A program made the position numbers and the translations under genes. A stretch of 46,911 bases of DNA, taken from assembly GCA_019455105.1 (NCBI GenBank), contig JACFMZ010000008.1, positions 1 through 46,911 on the forward strand, written 5' to 3'. Below are positions 35,739 through 46,911 of this stretch, one piece after another. The DNA is from Bacteroidota bacterium (GTDB taxonomy: Bacteria; Bacteroidota; Ignavibacteria; UBA10030; UBA8401). The notes under the pieces are model-generated. The model was not told where the DNA came from and did no database searches. It worked only from the letters and a program-made list of their open reading frames with translations. Within the stretch, counting starts at the first letter, position 1, and each line of letters opens with the position of its first letter.

Positions 35739-36713
35739 TCAATCAAAATCTCTTTGCATATATTGAATGCGGGAAAGCTCATTCTTCAGCTCTGTTATCT
35801 CTTTAATTTTTCCGCGAAATTCATTGATATCGGAATAATTTTTTCGCTTCATCCATAGTTTTATTTCCTGCAGAATTGTTTCAATATAACTAACGCCGTT
35901 TTTATACAATGTTGAGCAGAGTTGAACGGTTGAAGCACCGGCGAGAAGTTGTTTAATAACTGCTTTACTGTCATAAATTCCGGTTGAGGCGGAAAGGTCA
36001 AGATCGTACTTTCCCGAAAGAAGTGTAATCCACCGCATCACATTGAGCGATTCCTGCGGCGAGCTTAATGTATTTTGATTAACCGCTGCTAATTTTTCAA
36101 CATCAAAATCGGGCTGATAGAAACGATTGAATAGCACTACTCCATCTGCGCCGGCATTTGAAATTCGCGAAACAATATTAAAGATATTTGAAAAACATGG
36201 CGAGATTTTTACCGAAAGAGGAAGCCGCGTAAACTTTCGAACTTCTTTTACAATTTCAACATAACGTAATTCAATTTCGTCTCCGGAAAATTGTTCATCC
36301 ATCGGCAGAAATGAAATATTTAGTTCAAGCGCATCGGCACCTGCCTGCTCAATCTGGCGGGAGAATCCGGTCCACTGGGCAACGGAAACACAATTAATGC
36401 TGGCAATAATAGGAATAGGATTTTGCGCTTTTACAATTTGAATAAGCCGCAGATAATCATCAATACCGTGCTCTTTTGAAAGCGTGGTAACATACTCTTC
36501 CACATGCGGATACCAATAGTACATTGGGTCGAGATTGAACTGCGATTGAATTTCGCTGATTATTTGTTCTTCAAATAATGAACGAAGAACAACAGCGCCG
36601 GCGCCGGCTTCATAACACTGCCGGATTTTTTCCGGTGAATCGGTCAGTTTAGAACTGCTCACAATTATCGGATTGCGAAGCTGCATTCCGAGATATGTTG
36701 TCGCGAGACTCAT
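35739..36713 (-). CDS. Dihydroorotate dehydrogenase-like FMN protein in the hydrogenase operon
   Basis: A 324-residue TIM-barrel flavoprotein. LGMQLRNPIIVSSSKLTDSPEKI near the N-terminus, SINCVSVAQW, GADALELNISFLP, LPLSVKISPCFSN, and the FMN-phosphate site region SASTGIYDSKAVIKQLLAGA match the DHOD-like branch that is separate from true PyrD. The branch has no settled biochemical role. Here it overlaps the maturation protease gene by 4 bases and hypA by one base of spacing, so it is translated as part of the hydrogenase series. It might pass electrons between NAD(P)H and another acceptor; that is speculation. Confidence 0.82.
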   Translation of the reverse strand: MSLATTYLGMQLRNPIIVSSSKLTDSPEKIRQCYEAGAGAVVLRSLFEEQIISEIQSQFNLDPMYYWYPHVEEYVTTLSKEHGIDDYLRLIQIVKAQNPIPIIASINCVSVAQWTGFSRQIEQAGADALELNISFLPMDEQFSGDEIELRYVEIVKEVRKFTRLPLSVKISPCFSNIFNIVSRISNAGADGVVLFNRFYQPDFDVEKLAAVNQNTLSSPQESLNVMRWITLLSGKYDLDLSASTGIYDSKAVIKQLLAGASTVQLCSTLYKNGVSYIETILQEIKLWMKRKNYSDINEFRGKIKEITELKNELSRIQYMQRDFD

Positions 36714-37201
36714 ACGGCTTCCTCCGGATTATGATACCATTGTTTTGTCATCTCCCGAAACTGCCCGAATGCTTTCCATAAATTTTTTTCCGCCTGCTCG
36801 CTGAGACGCTCGCCGATTTCCCATTGGTAACCTTTAATTTCAAGCAGATAGGTTTCAGGAAATTTTCCGTACAATTCTCCGCATAAATTTAAAACGGTAG
36901 AAGGTGAAATTGAGTGCGAAGAATATTCATCAACAATTTCAGGAGTGATTTTTGTGAGCGACCACTCTTCCGTTAAATTTTCCGATGCATCGACGATAAC
37001 AACAATATCGTATCCGCTCATTTCATACGCATCTTCAATATTCAATTGAAATGTTTTTTGCATGTGAATATGGCTGAAACATTCCTTGCACAGCCACGGC
37101 TCAAGCATTTCCAAAAATGCACAGCCGAGGGCATCATCACCGCGGCTCGGATTTCCGATTGCGTGAATAAGCAGCCGGGGTTTTTCATCAATGGTAATCA
37201 T
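36710..37201 (-). CDS. hoxW: Hydrogenase maturation endopeptidase (HoxW/HyaD type)
   Basis: A 163-residue protein. The family signature [20 protein letters not shown] (residues ~14-33) includes the acidic nickel-sensing residue, and VVIVDASEN supplies the second acid. It cuts the C-terminal peptide of HoxH after nickel insertion. It overlaps hoxH and the DHOD-like gene by 4 bases each (ATGA), consistent with a dedicated protease for this HoxH. Confidence 0.9.
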
Positions 37202-38625
37202 CGAAGTTTCCTTTCGATAATATTATTGTTTTCGTCTATTAAGAGAATTTCAAGCGGCATTTTCCCCATGGCGTGTGTTGAACAGCTTAAGCACGGATCA
37301 AAGCAGCGAATTCCCGCTTCAATGCGATTGAGAATTCCTTCGGTAATTTTTTTTCGTTCAATAAACTGCATGGCTATCTGGCGGACTGTTCGATTCATGG
37401 CAATATTATTCTGCGCGGTGGCAATTAATAAATTTGATTTTTTCAGCACTCCGTTTTCATCTACCCAGTAATGATGGAATAATGTTCCGCGCGGCGCTTC
37501 CGAAGCTCCGACACCTTCCAGTGAATTGATTTCCGCTTTCGCCCGAACATGCTTTCCAAGAATGCCCGGGTCGTGCATCAATTCTTCTATTTTTTCAATG
37601 GCAAATAATAATTCAATTAAGCGGGCATAGTGATAATAAAATGAATTATTCACAGCCTCCGATGATCCGGCAAGCGTTTTAAACAATTTTCTTTCTTGTT
37701 CGGCAAGCGGTGTTTCAATAAAATCACAAATATTAACCCTCGCCAACGGACCAACCCTGTAAAACCCTTTGGGATACCCCAGAGGTTTATAGAACGGAAA
37801 TTTTAAATATGTCCACGATTCTGTCGCCTCGCCGAAATAATTAAAATATTTTTTTGGGTCCAGCTTATCGGCAATTATATTCCCGGCACTGTCCATAATA
37901 CGCAAATTACCGTCGTAATATTCCAGCGCGCCGTTTTCTCCCACCAACCCGACGAACAGCGAATGAAAATTTCCGAAGCTTGGAATTTCCCTTTGAAATT
38001 TTATGTGTATTGTTTTTAATGTGTCGAGCGCAAGTTTCGCCGTTTCTTTTACTTCGGGATACCACGAGAGAATTTGGTTTTTTTCAATTTCTTCTAACGG
38101 CTGACGTACGCCCCCGGCAACCGCCCACGGCACGTGAATTCTTCTTCCGCCGAGCATTTCAATAATTTCCTGTCCGAATTTCCGCAATCGGATTCCGCGG
38201 CGCGCAAATTCTTTATCAAATTCCAGTAAACCAAAAATATTTCTCTTTGCCGGATGAGCATCGAAGCCAAGAAGAAAATCCGGAGAGGAAAGATGAAAGA
38301 ATGAAAGCGCGTGCGACTGCACCCATTGAGCAAGGGTCATCAATCGGCGAAGTTTTTCCGCAGTTTCCGGAATACCGATGGAGAGTATATCATCCCCCGC
38401 TTTTGCCGAGGTGATGAAATGAGAAGCCGGACAAATACCGCAGATCCGCGAAGTTATGCCGGGCATTTCCCATACTAAACGGCCTTCACAAAATTTTTCA
38501 AATCCGCGAAATTCATTCACATGAAAACGGGCATCTTCTACTTCACCGGAAGAGTTTAAGTGAATGGTAATCTTTGCATGACCTTCTATGCGCGTAACCG
38601 GAGAGATAGTGATAGTTTCAGACAT
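37198..38625 (-). CDS. hoxH: [NiFe] hydrogenase large subunit HoxH (group 3d type)
   Basis: A 475-residue catalytic subunit. N-terminal [12 protein letters not shown] and the L1 motif [10 protein letters not shown] (Cys62, Cys65); C-terminal L2 motif [10 protein letters not shown] (Cys445, Cys448). Four Cys are thus in place to bind the NiFe centre. Cleavage after His451 would remove 24 residues ([20 protein letters not shown] and the rest). Neighbours hoxEFUY identify it as the bidirectional NAD-linked group 3d rather than an uptake enzyme. A 216-base gap separates it from hoxY and contains a dispersed-repeat copy. Confidence 0.96.
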
Positions 38626-38841: not shown

Positions 38842-39390
38842 TTATCCGTACCGCAAATATGCTGTTGCTAATTTTGGAATACGTCCTTCCAATAATTCTG
38901 AAATTGCAAACCAAATTTCGTCCGGTGTCGGCGGGCAGCCGTGCAAAAATGCATCCACACGTATAAGGTGGTGAAGCGCGATGGCTTTGGGAAGCATTTT
39001 TGCAATAATACTATCCGAAGGAATTGCAAATTTTTCTTCTGCAAGTTCCGTGTAGGTTCGCCTCATTAATTCTTCCGGCGTAAACCGATTCCGCATTGCC
39101 GTTACGTTGCCGGTTGTGGCGCAGTCGCCAAAGGCAATAACGAACCGTGAATTTTTTCGAACGAGATGCGCCATTTCTTCATTCTCATCATTAGAAACGG
39201 CTCCTTCCACCAACGTTACATCTACATTGCGCGGAAATTCTTTAATATCCGCAATGGGAGAATAGACCAGCTCAATCTTATCATGCAGTTCTATCAATCG
39301 TTCATCAAGATCGAGAAACGACATGTGGCACCCGGAACATCCTCCGAGCCAGGCTGTTGCAACGCGCGGTTTTTGTATTTTTTCAGACAT
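38842..39390 (-). CDS. hoxY: [NiFe] hydrogenase small subunit HoxY
   Basis: A 182-residue subunit starting at ATG 39390 ([10 protein letters not shown]); a TTG four codons upstream is rejected. It carries the single proximal [4Fe-4S] cluster ligands: GGCSGC (Cys18, Cys21), GDC (Cys90) and [11 protein letters not shown] (Cys152). It transfers electrons from HoxH to the diaphorase. Short length without medial or distal cluster motifs is typical of group 3d. It is flanked on both sides by copies of a dispersed repeat. Confidence 0.95.
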
Positions 39391-39421
39391 TTGATTTATC
39401 AATTTTTTATTGTTTAGCTAT

Positions 39422-39515: not shown

Positions 39516-40238
39516 TTACTCTTCATACACCCACTCCCGTTTTTTTCGCGCATTGACGAGAAATTTTAAGAAATCCTGCTGTTTTTCCATTTCAGCAACC
39601 GTAACGCCTTTTTCAAATAATGTTCCGGTCGGGCACACAAGAACACACTTGCCGCACGAGGTGCAGGTTTCCGCATCGCCCCACGGTTCATCCAATCCGG
39701 TAACAATTTTACAGTCAATTCCACGTCCGGCAACATCCCACACATGCGCACCTTCAACTTCATCACACACGCGAACGCATCGCGTGCAGAGCACACAACG
39801 GTTATGATCAATAACAAAACGTTTGTGCGTTGCATCCAATTCTTTTTTCGGAAAGAGATACGGATACCGTACGCGCACTAATCCGACTTCATACGCAAGA
39901 TTTTGCAATTCGCAATGATTATTCACCACGCACACTGCGCAGACGTGATTTCCTTCCGATGCAAGAAGTGCGATGGTCATGCGGCGATATTTTTTTAATT
40001 TTTCCGTGTTGGTATGAACAACCATTCCTTCTTCCACTTTTGTTGTGCAGGCAGGAAGAAGTTTATTGTTTCCTTCCACTTGAATAAGACACAACCGACA
40101 CGCTCCGACTTCCGAAAGTCCTTCAAGAAAGCAGAGCGTGGGAATGGGAATATTATGTTCACGCGCCACTTGAAGAATCGTTTCTCCTTCCTGTGCGCTG
40201 AACTGCTGACCATCGATTGTAAAAGTTTTAACTGCCAT
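39516..40238 (-). CDS. hoxU: NAD-linked hydrogenase diaphorase Fe-S subunit HoxU
   Basis: A 240-residue protein homologous to the N-terminus of NuoG. Cluster ligands are all visible: [2Fe-2S] Cys36, Cys47, Cys50, Cys64; His-Cys type [4Fe-4S] His98, Cys100, Cys103, Cys109; two ferredoxin-type [4Fe-4S] sets [11 protein letters not shown] (148-158) and [11 protein letters not shown] (192-202). It connects HoxF/HoxE with HoxY/HoxH. It normally follows hoxF directly, but here a 2.5-kb island lies between. Its first ten bases including the start codon are duplicated at the far end of that island. Confidence 0.95.
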
Positions 40239-40267: not shown

Positions 40268-40960
40268 TTAATTCAACAATGTATTCGGTAACGTCCGTAT
40301 ATTTAGAACCCCTGTTCCATGTAATCCTCCGGGTTGAATCTGAACTTGTTGTAATGACATCTCTTTGAAATAATCATTTACACTTCCATTTACATTTTCT
40401 CCATCCGGAGAAAAATTGTTATGAATTGGAGAATAATTATATCCACTCGAATACATCATACTGTCAAATTCAGAAATCAAATATCCATTAGGATGCCCTG
40501 GCAATTTTACAGTATGAATATCATTTTTAAACTCTACCAAACGAATAGAAATCCGACGGATGTCTGAAGTTGAAATTTTACATAGATTTTTAAAATTTAT
40601 CTTTGGCTATTCAAAAAATATTTGTTCTTTAGTTTTTTCAATAGCGAATCTTACTTTATTGCTATCAATTTCTCTACAAAGTGATGATGGGTAATCCATT
40701 ACGACTTTACTACCGTTACTAGCAAATTTTCCATTGGTTTGTTGAGCGGCATAATAGAACCACCCTGTTGCATAATCTTGGATGAAATAATAACCATTGT
40801 TTGTTACAGAATAAAAATAAAATTCATCACCTTGTTGTCGCCCAATAAATGTGATGCCGTTCGGTTGGTAGTACGTTTTCCAGCCAGTATCAAAAGGATT
40901 GGCTATGGCAAATTGTAGAACAACAAAAAATAAGACACTAACGATAAAAAGATTTTTCAT
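40268..40960 (-). pseudogene. Decayed M6-family (immune inhibitor A-like) metalloprotease
   Basis: Starts at MKNLFIVSVLFFVVLQFAIA (signal peptide; GGGAG 6 bases upstream). The next part matches the N-terminal propeptide of M6-type secreted proteases: YYQPNGITFIGRQQGDEFYF, GYYFIQDYATGWFYYAAQ. A TAG at 40607-40609 interrupts, but the same frame goes on as IRRISIRLVEFKNDIHTV, then FDSMMYSSGY and NGSVNDYFKEMSLQQ, which fit the start of the M6 catalytic domain. It then loses frame: other frames give KFRFNPEDYMEQG and SKYTDVTEYIVELNRQLRK up to a stop at 40248. The HEXXH zinc site is absent. The M6 assignment is by motif only. Confidence 0.62.
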
Positions 40961-41012
40961 ATAATCTCCCATGGTCAGTAGTTGAAAAAATAGAAAAATA
41001 TTTTGTAGATCG

Positions 41013-42680
41013 TTATTTTAATAACTGCATTTTGTACACTCTTAATTTCCCTTCATACATAATTGAGTATAAATAGACTCCACTATTTAATCTTTCCGCA
41101 TTAAAATTGCTAGAATATACACCTCCATGAGTAAAGTAATTTTTCCTATGAGAAATTTCTCTGCCTAAAATGTCATAAACACTGATTTCTATATCTCCAC
41201 CCCGCGGCAGGTTAAACACAATCTGTGTATTTGAATTAAATGGATTAGGATAGTTTCTAACAAATAAAGAATCCATCGGAGAATTTTGGCTCTGAAATTT
41301 TTTTCCGATCGATGTTAACGGACCCAATATCCCCTCTTTGTTCACGTTTTGAGCATAAATTCCACTTCTTACTGCTACTTCATACCAAATTAATATTATT
41401 CCCTCTGTACCTTGAGCAACTGTATGTATGAAGTCAAATGTCTTATTGGCATTAATAAGCAATGGTTCATTCCACAATGAGTTACCATTTGAATCAATCC
41501 TTAATGCGTAATAGTATATATCCGGTTGTCCCCATATCAATATGATCGAATGTGAATCACTTAATATTGGTTCCGGGTCTCCAATAATGGTAATGTTTTT
41601 TCGAATAATCTTTTGAGGAACACTAAATGTGATATTCCCTAAATTATCTACCTTTAAATAATTAATACAATAATTTGTGTCAGAGACTTGCTCATTCCAA
41701 AAGAGATTAATGTCTTCTAATTCACCTATTATGAATTTTGGTTTTTCAATATCTAAATTTATTGAATCCAAAATTTTTCTTTCCCATTTAACATCCCCCG
41801 ATAGATGTAATGAAGTCAGATAATAATTGGAGAACATTGTCATCCCAATATATTCAATACTTGAACATATTAAATCCTGCATATCATAAGACAAGTTCAA
41901 AGAGTAAATATATCTTGGAATATAAATCCCACTATCACTCCATTTTTTACTCCCATTTGAATCATATCTAAATATTCTATTTGCTGCCGCAATAATCACC
42001 CCTGACTGTTGATCACTAATCATGCTGCTAATTTGCTAAAATGGTAAATCTTTTGTAACACTAAAACCCTGTTCACCAAACGCTTTAACACCGTTTGGCG
42101 TTATCCTTTGCAATTTTAATGTTGCGGATGACAATCCTGATCCATTAGCACTATCTATCCAGACATAAAAATATCCCTGCGTTTCAGCCGAAACTATTGT
42201 ACTAAACATTTTATCGTAATACTTTGCCGATGTATTTTCTTCCAGCAGTTTATGATTGAGATCTAATCCAAAGGTGTTGTTCCATAATAAAATCCCGTTT
42301 TTATCTATTCTGTTGGTAAACAACAAAACTTTTCCAGTATCAGACGGAATATTTTTGTCAGTTTCTTCATACTGAAGATAAGCCCCTCCACTTCCGTCTG
42401 AGCAAATTGCGTAGGGATATTGGTGTATTAAATACCCACCGACCCTTATTGGACTGCCGCCATTCCACTTCAGATATCCGTTTTTATTTATGCGTTGAAT
42501 GTACGCTTGTGTTTTTGCAAGGTTGGTAAAAAATATTATTGCACCACCATCACCATCATCCGTTACTAAAGGTGTCATGCCAAATGGAGAAACTTGCGTG
42601 TTCTTCGAAGAATCGGATGTCCATTGAGCTTGTCCACAATGGATTACCATGAGCATGAGAATCAAGAATCTCGTTATCAT
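41013..42680 (-). pseudogene. Secreted repeat protein with T9SS sorting domain, interrupted by one in-frame TAG
   Basis: Begins at MITRFLILMLMVIHCGQAQ (signal peptide; GAGGGAT before ATG). Propeller-like repeats with DGDGGAIIFF, QRINKNGYLKWNGG, SDGSGGAYLQYE, NRIDKNGILLWN and LQRITPNGVKAFGEQG. At 42036-42038 a TAG ends the first part, but the same frame continues directly with QISSMISDQQSGVIIA, RIFRYDSNGSKKWSDSGIYI, which keeps the repeat pattern. The protein ends in a type A sorting domain (RNYPNPFNSNTQIVFNLPRG, VYDILGREIS, LNSGVYLYSIMYEG). Without the TAG it would be ~555 residues. As it stands the first product (214 residues) lacks the sorting signal. The second part could only start at an internal ATG (42023) without signal peptide. 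Confidence 0.7.
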
Positions 42681-42763
42681 AAATCCCTCACAGAAGTTTG
42701 CGTTGTAAAACAGTGTACAATTTTTACTTCTGTAAGCCAAATTGAATGTAATCTTAATAGTTC

Positions 42764-42774: not shown

Positions 42775-44427
42775 TTACTTCTCAAAATTAACTTCGTGAA
42801 CGTCGTTGAACTCTTGGAACGTTTCGACCGGCTGCAATAATTCTTCATATTCATGGCGGAAAAATCGTAGAGTAGAAAGAACGGGATTCGGCGCAGATTG
42901 TCCGAGTCCGCAGAGACTCGTTTCTTTCACCATCATGCAAAGTTCCTGCAAGAGAATCATATCATCCTGCGTCCCTTTTTTCTTCGAGATCTTGTCGAGT
43001 AATCCGTAAATATGGCGCGTACCAACTCTGCAGGGAATACATTTTCCGCACGATTCATCCATACAAAATTGCATAAAGAATTTTGCGACTTCTACCATCT
43101 TGGATTCTGAATCCATCACGATCAATCCGCCGCTTCCCATAATAGAACCGACCGTTGCGAGCGATTCATAATCAACCGGAAGCTCAAGATGTTGTGATGG
43201 AATGCATCCTCCGGAAGGTCCGCCGGTTTGTGCCGCTTTAAATTCCGTTCCATCGGGAGTTCCGCCGCCGATATCAAAAATAATTGTGCGCAGAGGAATT
43301 CCCATCGGCACTTCAATCAATCCGGTATTTTTGATTTTTCCGGCGAGAGCGAACACTTTTGTTCCCGGACTTTTTGCCGTGCCGATTTTGGAAAACCATT
43401 CAAAGCCGTTACGAATAATCGGCGCAATGTTCGCGTACGTTTCTACGTTATTAATTACCGTCGGCATTCCCCATAAACCTTTTTCGGAGGGAAACGGCGG
43501 ACGCGGGCGCGGATTTCCTCTGCGACCTTCAATAGAAGCAAGTAAAGCTGTTTCTTCACCGCACACAAAGGCGCCGGCGCCGATGCGGATATCAATTCTA
43601 AAATTAAAATTCGATTCAAAAATCCTGCTTCCGAGCAGTCCTGCTTTTTCCGCCTGTTTAATGGCAAGTTTTAACCGTTCAATTGCAGAAGGGTATTCTG
43701 CACGAACATACACAAACCCTTGGTTTGCACCGACGGCATAACCGGCAATTGCCATTCCTTCCAACACCCGATGCGGGTCTCCTTCCAAAACACTGCGGTC
43801 CATGAACGCACCCGGATCACCTTCATCCGCATTGCAGACAATATATTTCTGCTCGCCTTTTGCCTTGCTGACAATATCCCATTTCAAGCCGGTTAAATAT
43901 CCGGCGCCGCCTCGTCCGCGTAACCCGCTTTTGCGAATTTCTTCTATCACATCTTGCGGCTGTTTTTCCGACACAACTTTCGCCAGCGCTTGATAGCCGT
44001 CGACCCCGATGTATTCATCGATGCTTTCTGCATTGATCTTGCCGCAGTTTTCAAGAACAATTTTGTATTGCGAAGCGAAAAATGGTGAAGAGATATCACA
44101 CTGATGCGAAGTAACGATTCTATTTTCTTTGATGTGAGAAGTTACAATCTGTTCTGCAGCACTCTCGTCGACATTTTGATACAGCACAGTATCGTGCGCT
44201 GTTTTTACTAACGGACCCTCGCCGCACAATCCCATACATCCTGTTCCCACAACGTCACATTCTTTATCAAGATGATGTTCCTGCAGTTTGGCTTTCAATG
44301 TGTCGCGGACAAAGTCCGCTCCGCACGAAACACAACCGGCTGCCGAACAATATAAGATGCGTTTTTTTCCGTTTTGTATTTTTTTATTTTCTTTTTCCGC
44401 GCATTCGTGAAGTTCTTCAAGTGTCAT
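42775..44427 (-). CDS. hoxF: NAD-linked hydrogenase diaphorase flavoprotein subunit HoxF
   Basis: A 550-residue protein that oxidises or reduces NAD(H). N-terminal thioredoxin-like [2Fe-2S] domain (~20-105, [11 protein letters not shown] and CMGLCGEGP), then the NuoF-type core: [17 protein letters not shown] (NADH/FMN), [40 protein letters not shown], and the C-terminal [4Fe-4S] site [12 protein letters not shown] with [12 protein letters not shown]. There is no fused HoxE domain, which is a separate gene upstream overlapping by 4 bases. After its stop the operon is interrupted by the island. Confidence 0.95.
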
Positions 44428-44951
44428 ATAATTTCCTCCACGCGAGATTCTTGAAGATGAGTAACTTTTTGCATTGCCTGTTCAACGGAAAGTTTCCCGG
44501 CAACAACATTATCCAGCACAACAACAGGAGCCAGTCCGCATGAACCGACACAGCGCGCCGTAATGAGAGAAATTTTATTATCGGCTGTTGTTTCGCCGAA
44601 GGTACAACCGCATTGCCTTTCCACTGCCTCTTGAATGCGTTCCGCCCCTTTTACATAACAGGCGGTTCCCATACAGAGTACAAAGGTATGTTCGCCTTTC
44701 GGTTTGAGATTAAAATAATGGTAGAATGTTGCAACGCCGTACACGCGGCTGAGCGGTAATTTTAAAGAGTGTGCAACGTAAATAAGAAGATCGTTTTCTA
44801 GAAAGCCAAAAATTCCTTGTGCAACATGAAGTACTTCAATAAGGGCATCCCCCCGCCCCTGGTGTTTTGTAATTGCACGATCGAGCAGTTTAAAGCGGTT
44901 GTCGCCGCTGGGGTGCTGACCTTTTGCAGGCACAGCATGCACAGTTTCCAT
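44424..44951 (-). CDS. hoxE: NAD-linked hydrogenase diaphorase subunit HoxE
   Basis: A 175-residue NuoE-like subunit with thioredoxin-like [2Fe-2S] ligands Cys93, Cys98 ([12 protein letters not shown]) and Cys134, Cys138 ([13 protein letters not shown]). An N-terminal helical part precedes it ([32 protein letters not shown]). It passes electrons with HoxF. Present as a separate gene, which places the enzyme among five-subunit HoxEFUYH hydrogenases. It lies 36 bases after the second small protein. Confidence 0.95.
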
Positions 44952-44987: not shown

Positions 44988-45254
44988 TTACAAAATAATA
45001 TCCAGCTCTTCATCACGGGTTGCCGGCGAACGCATGGCGCGAATTTTACACTGCATAATAAATGCTTCAATTCCTTCAAGGCGCGTGCCGATAATATCAA
45101 TATTTTGTTTCATTGCCGCAAAAAGCTGATCGGACGGGTCTTTTGAAAGTTTATGCTGAATTTCCGAGCGCAATGAGCCGATAACGGATTTTGTTTTTTC
45201 AATATCCGCCACAACCTGTTCAATGGAGAGAGCCATTATTTCTTTCGCTTCCAT
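44988..45254 (-). CDS. Small coiled-coil-like protein 2 of the hox operon (unknown function)
   Basis: An 88-residue protein starting at MEAKEIMALSIEQVV, chosen for its strong AAGGAGG 6 bases upstream; the frame upstream has only a weak GTG. The whole protein looks alpha-helical (two helices, ~8-35 and ~42-75) without signal or membrane segment. It aligns without gaps over its full 88 residues to the preceding gene product, with 27 identities counted by eye: M-x-A-K, S-I-x-Q, L-R-x-E, M-K at 48-49, T57-x-L-E, F65, C69 and R-A at 72-73. No family recognised. Conserved Cys69 is its only Cys. Confidence 0.8.
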   Translation of the reverse strand: MEAKEIMALSIEQVVADIEKTKSVIGSLRSEIQHKLSKDPSDQLFAAMKQNIDIIGTRLEGIEAFIMQCKIRAMRSPATRDEELDIIL

Positions 45255-45322
45255 AGTTTCCTCCTTAAAATATTTTTTTAAATAATTCTTTTCTCTTTTA
45301 ATCCAGTCGGCACAAACTCCGT

Positions 45323-45589
45323 TTACAACCACACATCAGAATGAGATGAAGAAAGCACCGGCGGATGTTCAGCGCGGCGCTGACAGGAAACAACAAAATC
45401 CTGCATTGATTCCAATTTTGTCTGAACAATCTGCAGCTGTTCTTTCATCGTAGCGAGCTTCGCAGTATGTTCCGATGTAACATGAATTTCTTCCGATTCG
45501 CGCCGAAGTTCAATAATAATATCTTGCAGTTTCAACAGATCTATTGCAAGCTGGTCAATTGATTCAAACATCATTTTTTTTGCGTTCAT
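45323..45589 (-). CDS. Small coiled-coil-like protein 1 of the hox operon (unknown function)
   Basis: An 88-residue protein, paralogue of the next gene and the same length. MNAKKMMFESIDQLAIDLLK opens it; helices with heptad-like spacing follow (LQDIIIELRRESEEI and LATMKEQLQIVQTKLESMQDF), then SCQRRAE and a Pro/Ser/His-rich tail. Only Cys is Cys69, conserved in the paralogue. GGAGA lies 9 bases before ATG. It is the first gene after the sigma-54-like promoter, so it should be made with the hydrogenase. It could be an assembly factor, a scaffold for the diaphorase or a regulator; nothing in the sequence decides. Confidence 0.8.
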   Translation of the reverse strand: MNAKKMMFESIDQLAIDLLKLQDIIIELRRESEEIHVTSEHTAKLATMKEQLQIVQTKLESMQDFVVSCQRRAEHPPVLSSSHSDVWL

Positions 45590-45656
45590 TGAAATTGTTC
45601 TCCGCTGAAGTTAAAAAAGTCTCTTTTTGTTTTCTCTATTATTTAAGAAAAAGAGC

Positions 45657-45672
45657 GCAAACTATGTACCAA
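45657..45672 (-). promoter_or_regulatory. Sigma-54 (-24/-12) promoter candidate for the hox-hyp operon
   Basis: On the minus strand TTGGTACATAGTTTGC. GG and GC are separated by exactly 10 bases, and the TGGYAC and TTGC halves match the consensus TGGCACG-N4-TTGC at 9 of 11 fixed positions. Transcription would start ~55 bases before the ATG at 45589. About 105-120 bases further upstream, 45777-45795 is an imperfect palindrome (GTTT-AGC-ATTTCA-GC-AAAC) that could serve as activator site. Confidence 0.55.
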
Positions 45673-45838: not shown

Positions 45839-45868
45839 AAGGGACTCTCCTTTTCAGAAGAATCCCTT
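45839..45868 (-). terminator. Rho-independent terminator of ppdK
   Basis: On the minus strand AAGGGATTCTTC pairs with GGAGAGTCCCTT (12 pairs, two of them G-T), loop TGAAAA, followed by TTTTTTATTTT. It lies 18 bases after the dikinase stop and isolates the hox operon from it. Confidence 0.82.
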
Positions 45869-45886: not shown

Positions 45887-46911
45887 TTACTTTTTCTTTT
45901 TCTTCGCCGGCGCTTTTACATCTTTCAACGCAGCGCGGGCAGCCGCAAGCCGGGCAATTGGAACGCGGAACGGCGAACAACTGACGTAGTTGTTGCCGAT
46001 CTGATGGCAAAATTCAACCGATGACGGTTCGCCGCCATGTTCGCCGCAAATACCAACCTTTAATGTCGGTCGGGTTTTGCGTCCTTTTTCGATGGCAATT
46101 TTCATTAACACACCAACACCATCTCGATCCAAAACTTCAAACGGATCTTTTGCATAAATTTCGCGTTCCACATACGGAACTAAGAAACTTGCTGAATCGT
46201 CGCGGCTCATTCCCATTGTCGTTTGGGTTAAATCGTTCGTGCCGAAGGAGAAGAACTCGGCAACTTTTGCCACTTCATCCGCCGTTACGGCGCCGCGCGG
46301 TACTTCAATCATTGTTCCGACGAGATAATTTAATTTTACTTTTTTCTCCGCCATAACTTCCGCGGCAACCCGGCGGACAATTTTTTCCTGATCGATAAGT
46401 TCTTTTACATTGCCGACTAACGGAATCATGACTTCAGGAAATACTTTCATTCCTTTTGCCTGCACATCAGCAGCGGCTTCAAAAATTGCGCGGGACTGCA
46501 TTTCAGTAATTTCTGGGTACACAATTCCCAAACGGCATCCGCGGAAACCAAGCATGGGATTAAATTCGTGCAAACCGGCAACGCGGGTTTTTACTTTTTC
46601 ATAACTGATTCCCATTGCCTGCGCCAGTTCACGCTGTTCCTTTTCTTCGTGCGGAACAAATTCATGGAGCGGCGGGTCGATGGTGCGAATGGTAACCGGA
46701 CGTCCGTTCATTGCTTCAAAAATTCCGGTAAAATCTTTTCGCTGCAACGGCAGTAATTTTGCAAGAGCGGCTTTGCGCGCTTCAACCGTTTCTGCAAGAA
46801 TCATTTCACGCATCGGACCAATTTTTCCTTCGCCGAAGAACATATGTTCTGTACGACACAGTCCGATTCCTTCCGCGCCGAAAGCAACGGCGTTGCTTGC
46901 CTGATCCGGCT
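45887..46911 (-). CDS. ppdK: Pyruvate phosphate dikinase, C-terminal part (5' end outside window)
   Basis: About 340 residues are visible; the frame is open to the right edge, so the N-terminal nucleotide-binding and phosphohistidine domains are missing. The PEP/pyruvate-binding barrel is recognised by [86 protein letters not shown] and the catalytic [10 protein letters not shown] (acid-base Cys), ending [16 protein letters not shown]. It interconverts pyruvate + ATP + phosphate and PEP + AMP + PPi. The last ~10 residues are Lys-rich (APAKKKKK), an unusual extension. Confidence 0.95.

Follow-up and report, generated by a model that had tools for sequence, protein, structure and literature searches.

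Genes A and B lie on the minus strand of the window, by which we mean the whole 46,911-nt stretch of DNA that was analyzed, taken from a Bacteroidota genome of the class Ignavibacteria. The order on this strand is ppdK (cut by the contig end), a terminator-like hairpin, a sigma-54-like site, B, A, hoxE, and hoxF, followed downstream by a 2.5 kb insert, hoxU, hoxY, hoxH, and hoxW together with the hyp genes (Table 1). B is separated from A by 68 nt, and A from hoxE by 36 nt. The insert between hoxF and hoxU (positions 40268-42740) holds what is left of a gene for a type IX secretion cargo protein; a Por_Secre_tail domain was detected in 41013-42023, which probably forms one gene with 42036-42740, broken into two frames. 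The corresponding gap in related genomes is about 0.1-0.3 kb. A dihydroorotate-dehydrogenase-like gene was also located between hoxW and hypA (35739-36713), and a relative (36-40% identical) adjoins nifJ elsewhere in the order.

Table 1. Features of the locus upstream of and within the hydrogenase operon (positions in the window)
Feature	Position	Strand	Remarks
ppdK (pyruvate phosphate dikinase), 3' part	45887..46909	-	5' part on another contig, G000:C118
Intrinsic-terminator-like hairpin after ppdK	45839..45868	-	separates ppdK from B
Sigma-54 consensus site TGGTACATAGTTTGC	45657..45671	-	82 nt upstream of the ATG of B
Weak Shine-Dalgarno-like GGAG of B	45600..45603	-	read directly
Copy B (upstream copy)	45323..45589	-	88 aa; member of subfamily I, orthologous to the gene linked to ppdK in related genera
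Shine-Dalgarno-like AAGGAGG of A	45260..45266	-	read directly
Copy A (adjoins hoxE)	44988..45254	-	88 aa; divergent paralogue within subfamily I that ends in DIIL and has lost the Trp of the tail
hoxE	44424..44951	-	NCBIfam HoxE cut-off passed (240 vs 224 bits)
hoxF	42775..44427	-	
hoxU	39516..40238	-	2.5 kb insert between hoxU and hoxF
hoxY	38842..39402	-	
hoxH	37198..38625	-	

The original prediction described A and B as two tandem 88-residue paralogues, each with its own Shine-Dalgarno sequence. Both ORFs were found exactly at the positions given in Table 1, with 88 codons each, and a Shine-Dalgarno-like sequence precedes each of them, that of B being the weaker. A gapless alignment over the full length of the two proteins has 27 identities (31%), and Cys69 is the sole cysteine in both, as had been claimed. 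The comparison of A with B by BLASTP gave an E-value of 2e-13, and in two sets of 20,000 shuffles each, one by composition and one heptad-preserving, the score of the alignment was never reached. A and B are real, related proteins.

The order, made up of UBA10030-type Ignavibacteria/Bacteroidetes MAGs, was covered by 98 genomes; protein and profile searches revealed 36 copies of the family in 28 of them, and the genomes with a copy fall in two families of the order (f1, f6). When about 290 genomes from the rest of the class were searched in the same ways, no full-length match was obtained. The hits that remained there were mostly to pieces of proteins of about 1200 aa; these long hits were rejected as coiled-coil chance, because within such a large protein only a portion of the profile is matched. 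The named relatives (seven named loci) come from MAGs that carry the label Bacteroidetes or Ignavibacteria(les), isolate UBA10030 being one of these. When A, B, and eight relatives were scanned against Pfam and NCBIfam, nothing exceeded the cut-off, the best match being a KIF21A-like coiled coil (26.6 vs 28.5 bits); this agrees with the earlier statement that A and B are unlike known hydrogenase accessory proteins. The dN/dS values of about 0.05-0.1 in close pairs indicate purifying selection, and thus the family genes are protein-coding and under selection. No account of a family of this kind turned up in the literature searched, and the A/B family, whose members are small (about 77-90 aa), is so far undescribed.

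Two subfamilies were distinguished. A and B matched the subfamily I profile A1, which includes both of them, over the full length (E 2e-30 and 6e-35, respectively), and with A as the only query B was recovered (3e-8), as were relatives in other genomes (from 4e-7). Subfamily I is marked by Phe65 and Cys69 (the cysteine in 19 of 20 alignment rows), both of which are present in A and B, and by a C-terminus that mostly reads acidic-D-[VIL]-W-[LM]. B ends in SDVWL, which is the tail motif except for the acidic residue, and A ends in LDIIL. The motif is also altered in the ppdK-linked genus (DVAS) and is missing from part of subfamily II. Subfamily II lacks Cys69 and has a conserved hinge, ExEKVLxYYxEHPxYPLDY; four of its members bridge to subfamily I by keeping a HTRLEG-type stretch and the DVWL end. 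The join between the two profiles was weak (hhalign E 7.6e-5, probability 62), and, judged from these sequence comparisons, subfamilies I and II likely form one family.

The AlphaFold2 models confidently predicted a two-helix hairpin for both B (H3-34/H39-74; pLDDT 81.5, pTM 0.60) and A (H3-38/H43-74; pLDDT 84.7, pTM 0.64), with residues 79-88 disordered in each. These models support the helical character that had been proposed, and the proteins are probably soluble, as also proposed. A profile search of solved structures returned coiled-coil background only, and the fold search yielded generic hairpins with no match at E <= 0.001.

In the phylogenetic tree, B was placed in the ppdK-linked clade (support 97/91). 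A formed a long branch that was joined to the ppdK group with a weak placement (44/67), and a tree with A and B as sisters scored 6.6 log units lower (AU p 0.063). A recent tandem duplication giving A and B is therefore not favored. The tandem pair was present in no other genome searched, every other locus holding a single copy, and thus the heterodimer that had been proposed is not supported and would be particular to the genome of the window. The disulfide- or thiol-based mechanism proposed with it cannot be general, since Cys69 is missing from subfamily II and from the copy in G012.

The sequence TGGNACN5TTGC has one exact match in the whole 47 kb window, TGGTACATAGTTTGC, which lies before B. 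This confirmed the claim that A and B are the first genes behind a sigma-54-like promoter and directly precede hoxE; B, A, and hoxEF are likely co-transcribed from this predicted promoter, so that A and B are likely made together with the hydrogenase, as had been supposed. RpoN is encoded in the same genome, in which 20 exact matches were counted vs 7 for the reversed control. The ppdK gene of this genome has a site of its own, TGGCACTGTTCTTGC, which lies 103 nt upstream of the start codon on the contig with the 5' part (G000:C118, L143/L151), and the intergenic matches also include one for a ferredoxin gene and those for two flagellar genes. The flagellar genes with consensus sites nearby (G000:C129, L144 and L145) encode an FlhG/MinD-like ATPase and an FlgB-like protein, which suggests that RpoN also controls motility in this organism.

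Exact sigma-54 sites recurred in the relatives, where they were found before ppdK in 4 of 5 loci and before nifJ (pyruvate:ferredoxin oxidoreductase) in 4 of 11 loci, compared with 4 among 393 other ORFs (Fisher p 3e-7 for ppdK and 2e-5 for nifJ, values that overstate independence because the genomes are related). These recurrent sites strengthen the promoter call of the original prediction. Genes for NtrC-type activators were detected close to the family/nifJ cluster in G044 and G071; the NtrC-type sigma-54 activators with a receiver domain are encoded at L060:11883-13250 (cluster of G071) and L051:13122-14504 (cluster of G044). Most of the family genes themselves are mid-operon and had no sigma-54 site within 450 nt upstream, and FNR-like boxes, considered as the mark of a shared regulator, were absent near most loci. 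The predicted -24/-12 element upstream of the pair recurs at orthologous operons; the B-A-hoxEF unit is rather likely to be under sigma-54 control, and the pair probably belongs to a sigma-54 regulon of fermentative metabolism.

The neighborhoods of the family copies were then compared, and the marker neighbors share the strand of the family gene in all loci read. In the genera nearest to the window, ppdK lies 78-136 nt upstream of the B orthologue (301 nt in the window) in all 8 loci that hold upstream DNA. The hox genes follow the B orthologue immediately in the window and in G002, after 1.3-2.4 kb in G016, G017, and G012, and after 7.4 kb in G020, and none follow it in G010, where ppdK and the family gene are kept together and the hox operon lies on another contig without a family gene. 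A gene for an acetate-type CoA-transferase/acetyl-CoA hydrolase was found within 0.6 kb upstream of the family copy in 15 loci, often preceded by an alanine dehydrogenase/transhydrogenase-type gene, and nifJ was found downstream of the family copy in 11 loci. The third copy in the genome of the window (G000:C170:3589-3828) lies between a CoA-transferase gene, the product of which has its best NCBIfam match, below the cut-off, to butyryl-CoA:acetate CoA-transferase, and a universal stress protein gene. Thus, the family usually adjoins enzymes of pyruvate/acetyl-CoA fermentation rather than hydrogenase. The family, its linkage, and the selection acting on it can, taken together, be accepted with high confidence.

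Two other kinds of neighbor were observed. A protein of about 110 aa that is rich in Cys and contains two C-x2-C...C...C repeats is frequently encoded nearby (L049:9376-9702, L057:3492-3845, and L083:9170-9502); it had no Pfam match and was not found in the genome of the window. In some genomes, receiver-like and DksA-type zinc-finger proteins are encoded directly before the family gene (L059:9119-9957 and L055:9047-9900).

We propose that A and B are small, sigma-54-controlled putative adaptors or modulators of an enzyme of the pyruvate/acetyl-CoA/H2 node, with a probability of about 0.5. RpoN would induce A and B under anaerobic or energy-limited conditions, when B, the divergent A, and hoxEF would be transcribed as one unit from behind the sigma-54 site. 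The pair would then be made together with HoxEFUYH in this genome, and its partner need not be the hydrogenase. The constant neighbor of B is ppdK, while A adjoins hoxE. As small soluble adaptors or modulators, the proteins may self-associate through the hairpin or bind an enzyme of the fermentative node with it, and the conserved C-terminal tail on its flexible linker may dock to a partner. The combination of a hairpin, a flexible linker, and a short conserved tail would fit a small adaptor. Some observations count against the proposal: the helical hairpin is generic, as seen from the fold search; the tail motif is altered or missing in some members and the join of the two subfamilies is weak; and the recurrent sigma-54 sites come from genomes that are related to one another, while most of the family genes themselves have none nearby. 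In an extended form of the proposal, which we regard as speculative and rather improbable, the lineage would have evolved paralogous hairpin adaptors, one per operon, that assemble or tune PPDK, PFOR, CoA-transferase, and the NAD-linked hydrogenase as a sigma-54-controlled unit, and a copy would have been duplicated or recruited here to bring in the bidirectional hydrogenase.

The recurrence of sigma-54 sites at these operons, and the NtrC-type activators, DksA-like zinc-finger proteins, and receiver-like proteins that adjoin the family in several genomes, are also consistent with a function in transcription feedback, in which the hairpin would bind an NtrC-type activator, RpoN, or some other protein that regulates the sigma-54 fermentation regulon, and the single copy in each operon would serve as a local feedback element. 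However, A and B contain no DNA-binding motif and show no likeness to known anti-activators, and several of the enzyme-adjacent copies have no regulator gene nearby; we consider this explanation unlikely. The universal stress protein genes that adjoin several copies, including the third copy described above, would instead fit a generic protein of stress or starvation, such as a hibernation factor associated with the ribosome or polymerase, that is co-regulated with anaerobic genes and has no specific enzyme partner. Such a protein is similarly doubtful here, as neither Pfam nor NCBIfam revealed any likeness to known hibernation factors, and the repeated direct adjacency to specific enzymes of central carbon metabolism suggests a tighter tie.

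The original prediction assigned A and B a role in the assembly, docking, or redox control of HoxEFU. Most members of the family, however, have no hydrogenase gene near them and neighbor ppdK, a CoA-transferase gene, or nifJ, which by the refuting condition given with the prediction speaks against a hydrogenase-specific role. Recurrent linkage to hoxEF, which had been set beforehand as the check, was not borne out across the genomes. A close HoxH orthologue, defined as one with about 67% identity or more, is present in 47 genomes of the order. A family member was not detected in 29 of these 47, and 10 of the 28 genomes with the family have no close HoxH; as some genomes are incomplete, single absences are weak, and the pattern is consistent. 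In the hox loci read from the two other main families, hypB directly precedes hoxE in 11 of 13, and a family copy is the next gene before hoxE in only one genome other than that of the window, G002. The co-occurrence with HoxH and the position of hypB indicate that the family is not part of the hydrogenase system as such. That the HoxEFUYH diaphorase has in A and B its own dedicated factors for assembly, docking, or redox control, which work as a heterodimer through Cys69, is very unlikely on these grounds and on account of the separate hox operon of G010, the restriction of the pair to one genome, and the loss of the cysteine from G012 and subfamily II, even though A ends just before hoxE, both genes lie behind one promoter, Cys69 is well kept within subfamily I, and, besides G002, a copy lies within 2.5 kb of the hox genes in four more genomes.

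In summary, the analysis adds an unannotated small-protein family of an uncultured order with a clear genomic address in PEP, pyruvate, acetyl-CoA, and H2 metabolism, and corrects the reading of A and B as hydrogenase-only proteins. It also provides evidence that ppdK, nifJ, and, in the genome of the window, the hox operon belong to a sigma-54 regulon. If the members are indeed enzyme adaptors, they would offer a compact case of a lineage coordinating its fermentative enzymes.

Several known proteins resemble A and B in part. The NiFe-hydrogenase accessory proteins HypA, HypB, HypC, and HoxW are likewise small or medium-sized soluble proteins encoded with hydrogenase, but they show no sequence match to A or B, the window has its genuine hyp and hoxW genes apart from the pair, and the A/B family is not tied to hydrogenase. 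WXG100/EsxA-type hairpins are similar in size and in the two-helix hairpin; however, their Foldseek rows were not significant (E 1.9 or more), the alignment of the A/B family shows no W-x-G at the hinge, and no type VII secretion genes were present among the neighbors read. The coiled-coil hairpin of DksA/GreA-type proteins is alike in geometry (E 5.1), whereas the A/B family itself has neither a zinc finger nor a conserved acidic tip between the helices. CP12 is a small linker protein of GAPDH and phosphoribulokinase, of about 80 aa, mainly disordered, and with paired cysteines. The A/B family differs from it in having a single cysteine or none and two long helices, and without a Pfam match to CP12 it is not placed among the CP12 proteins; nevertheless, the size of about 80 aa, the link to central carbon enzymes, and a conserved C-terminal tail borne by a flexible segment are shared, and CP12 may serve as an analogy for how A and B work.
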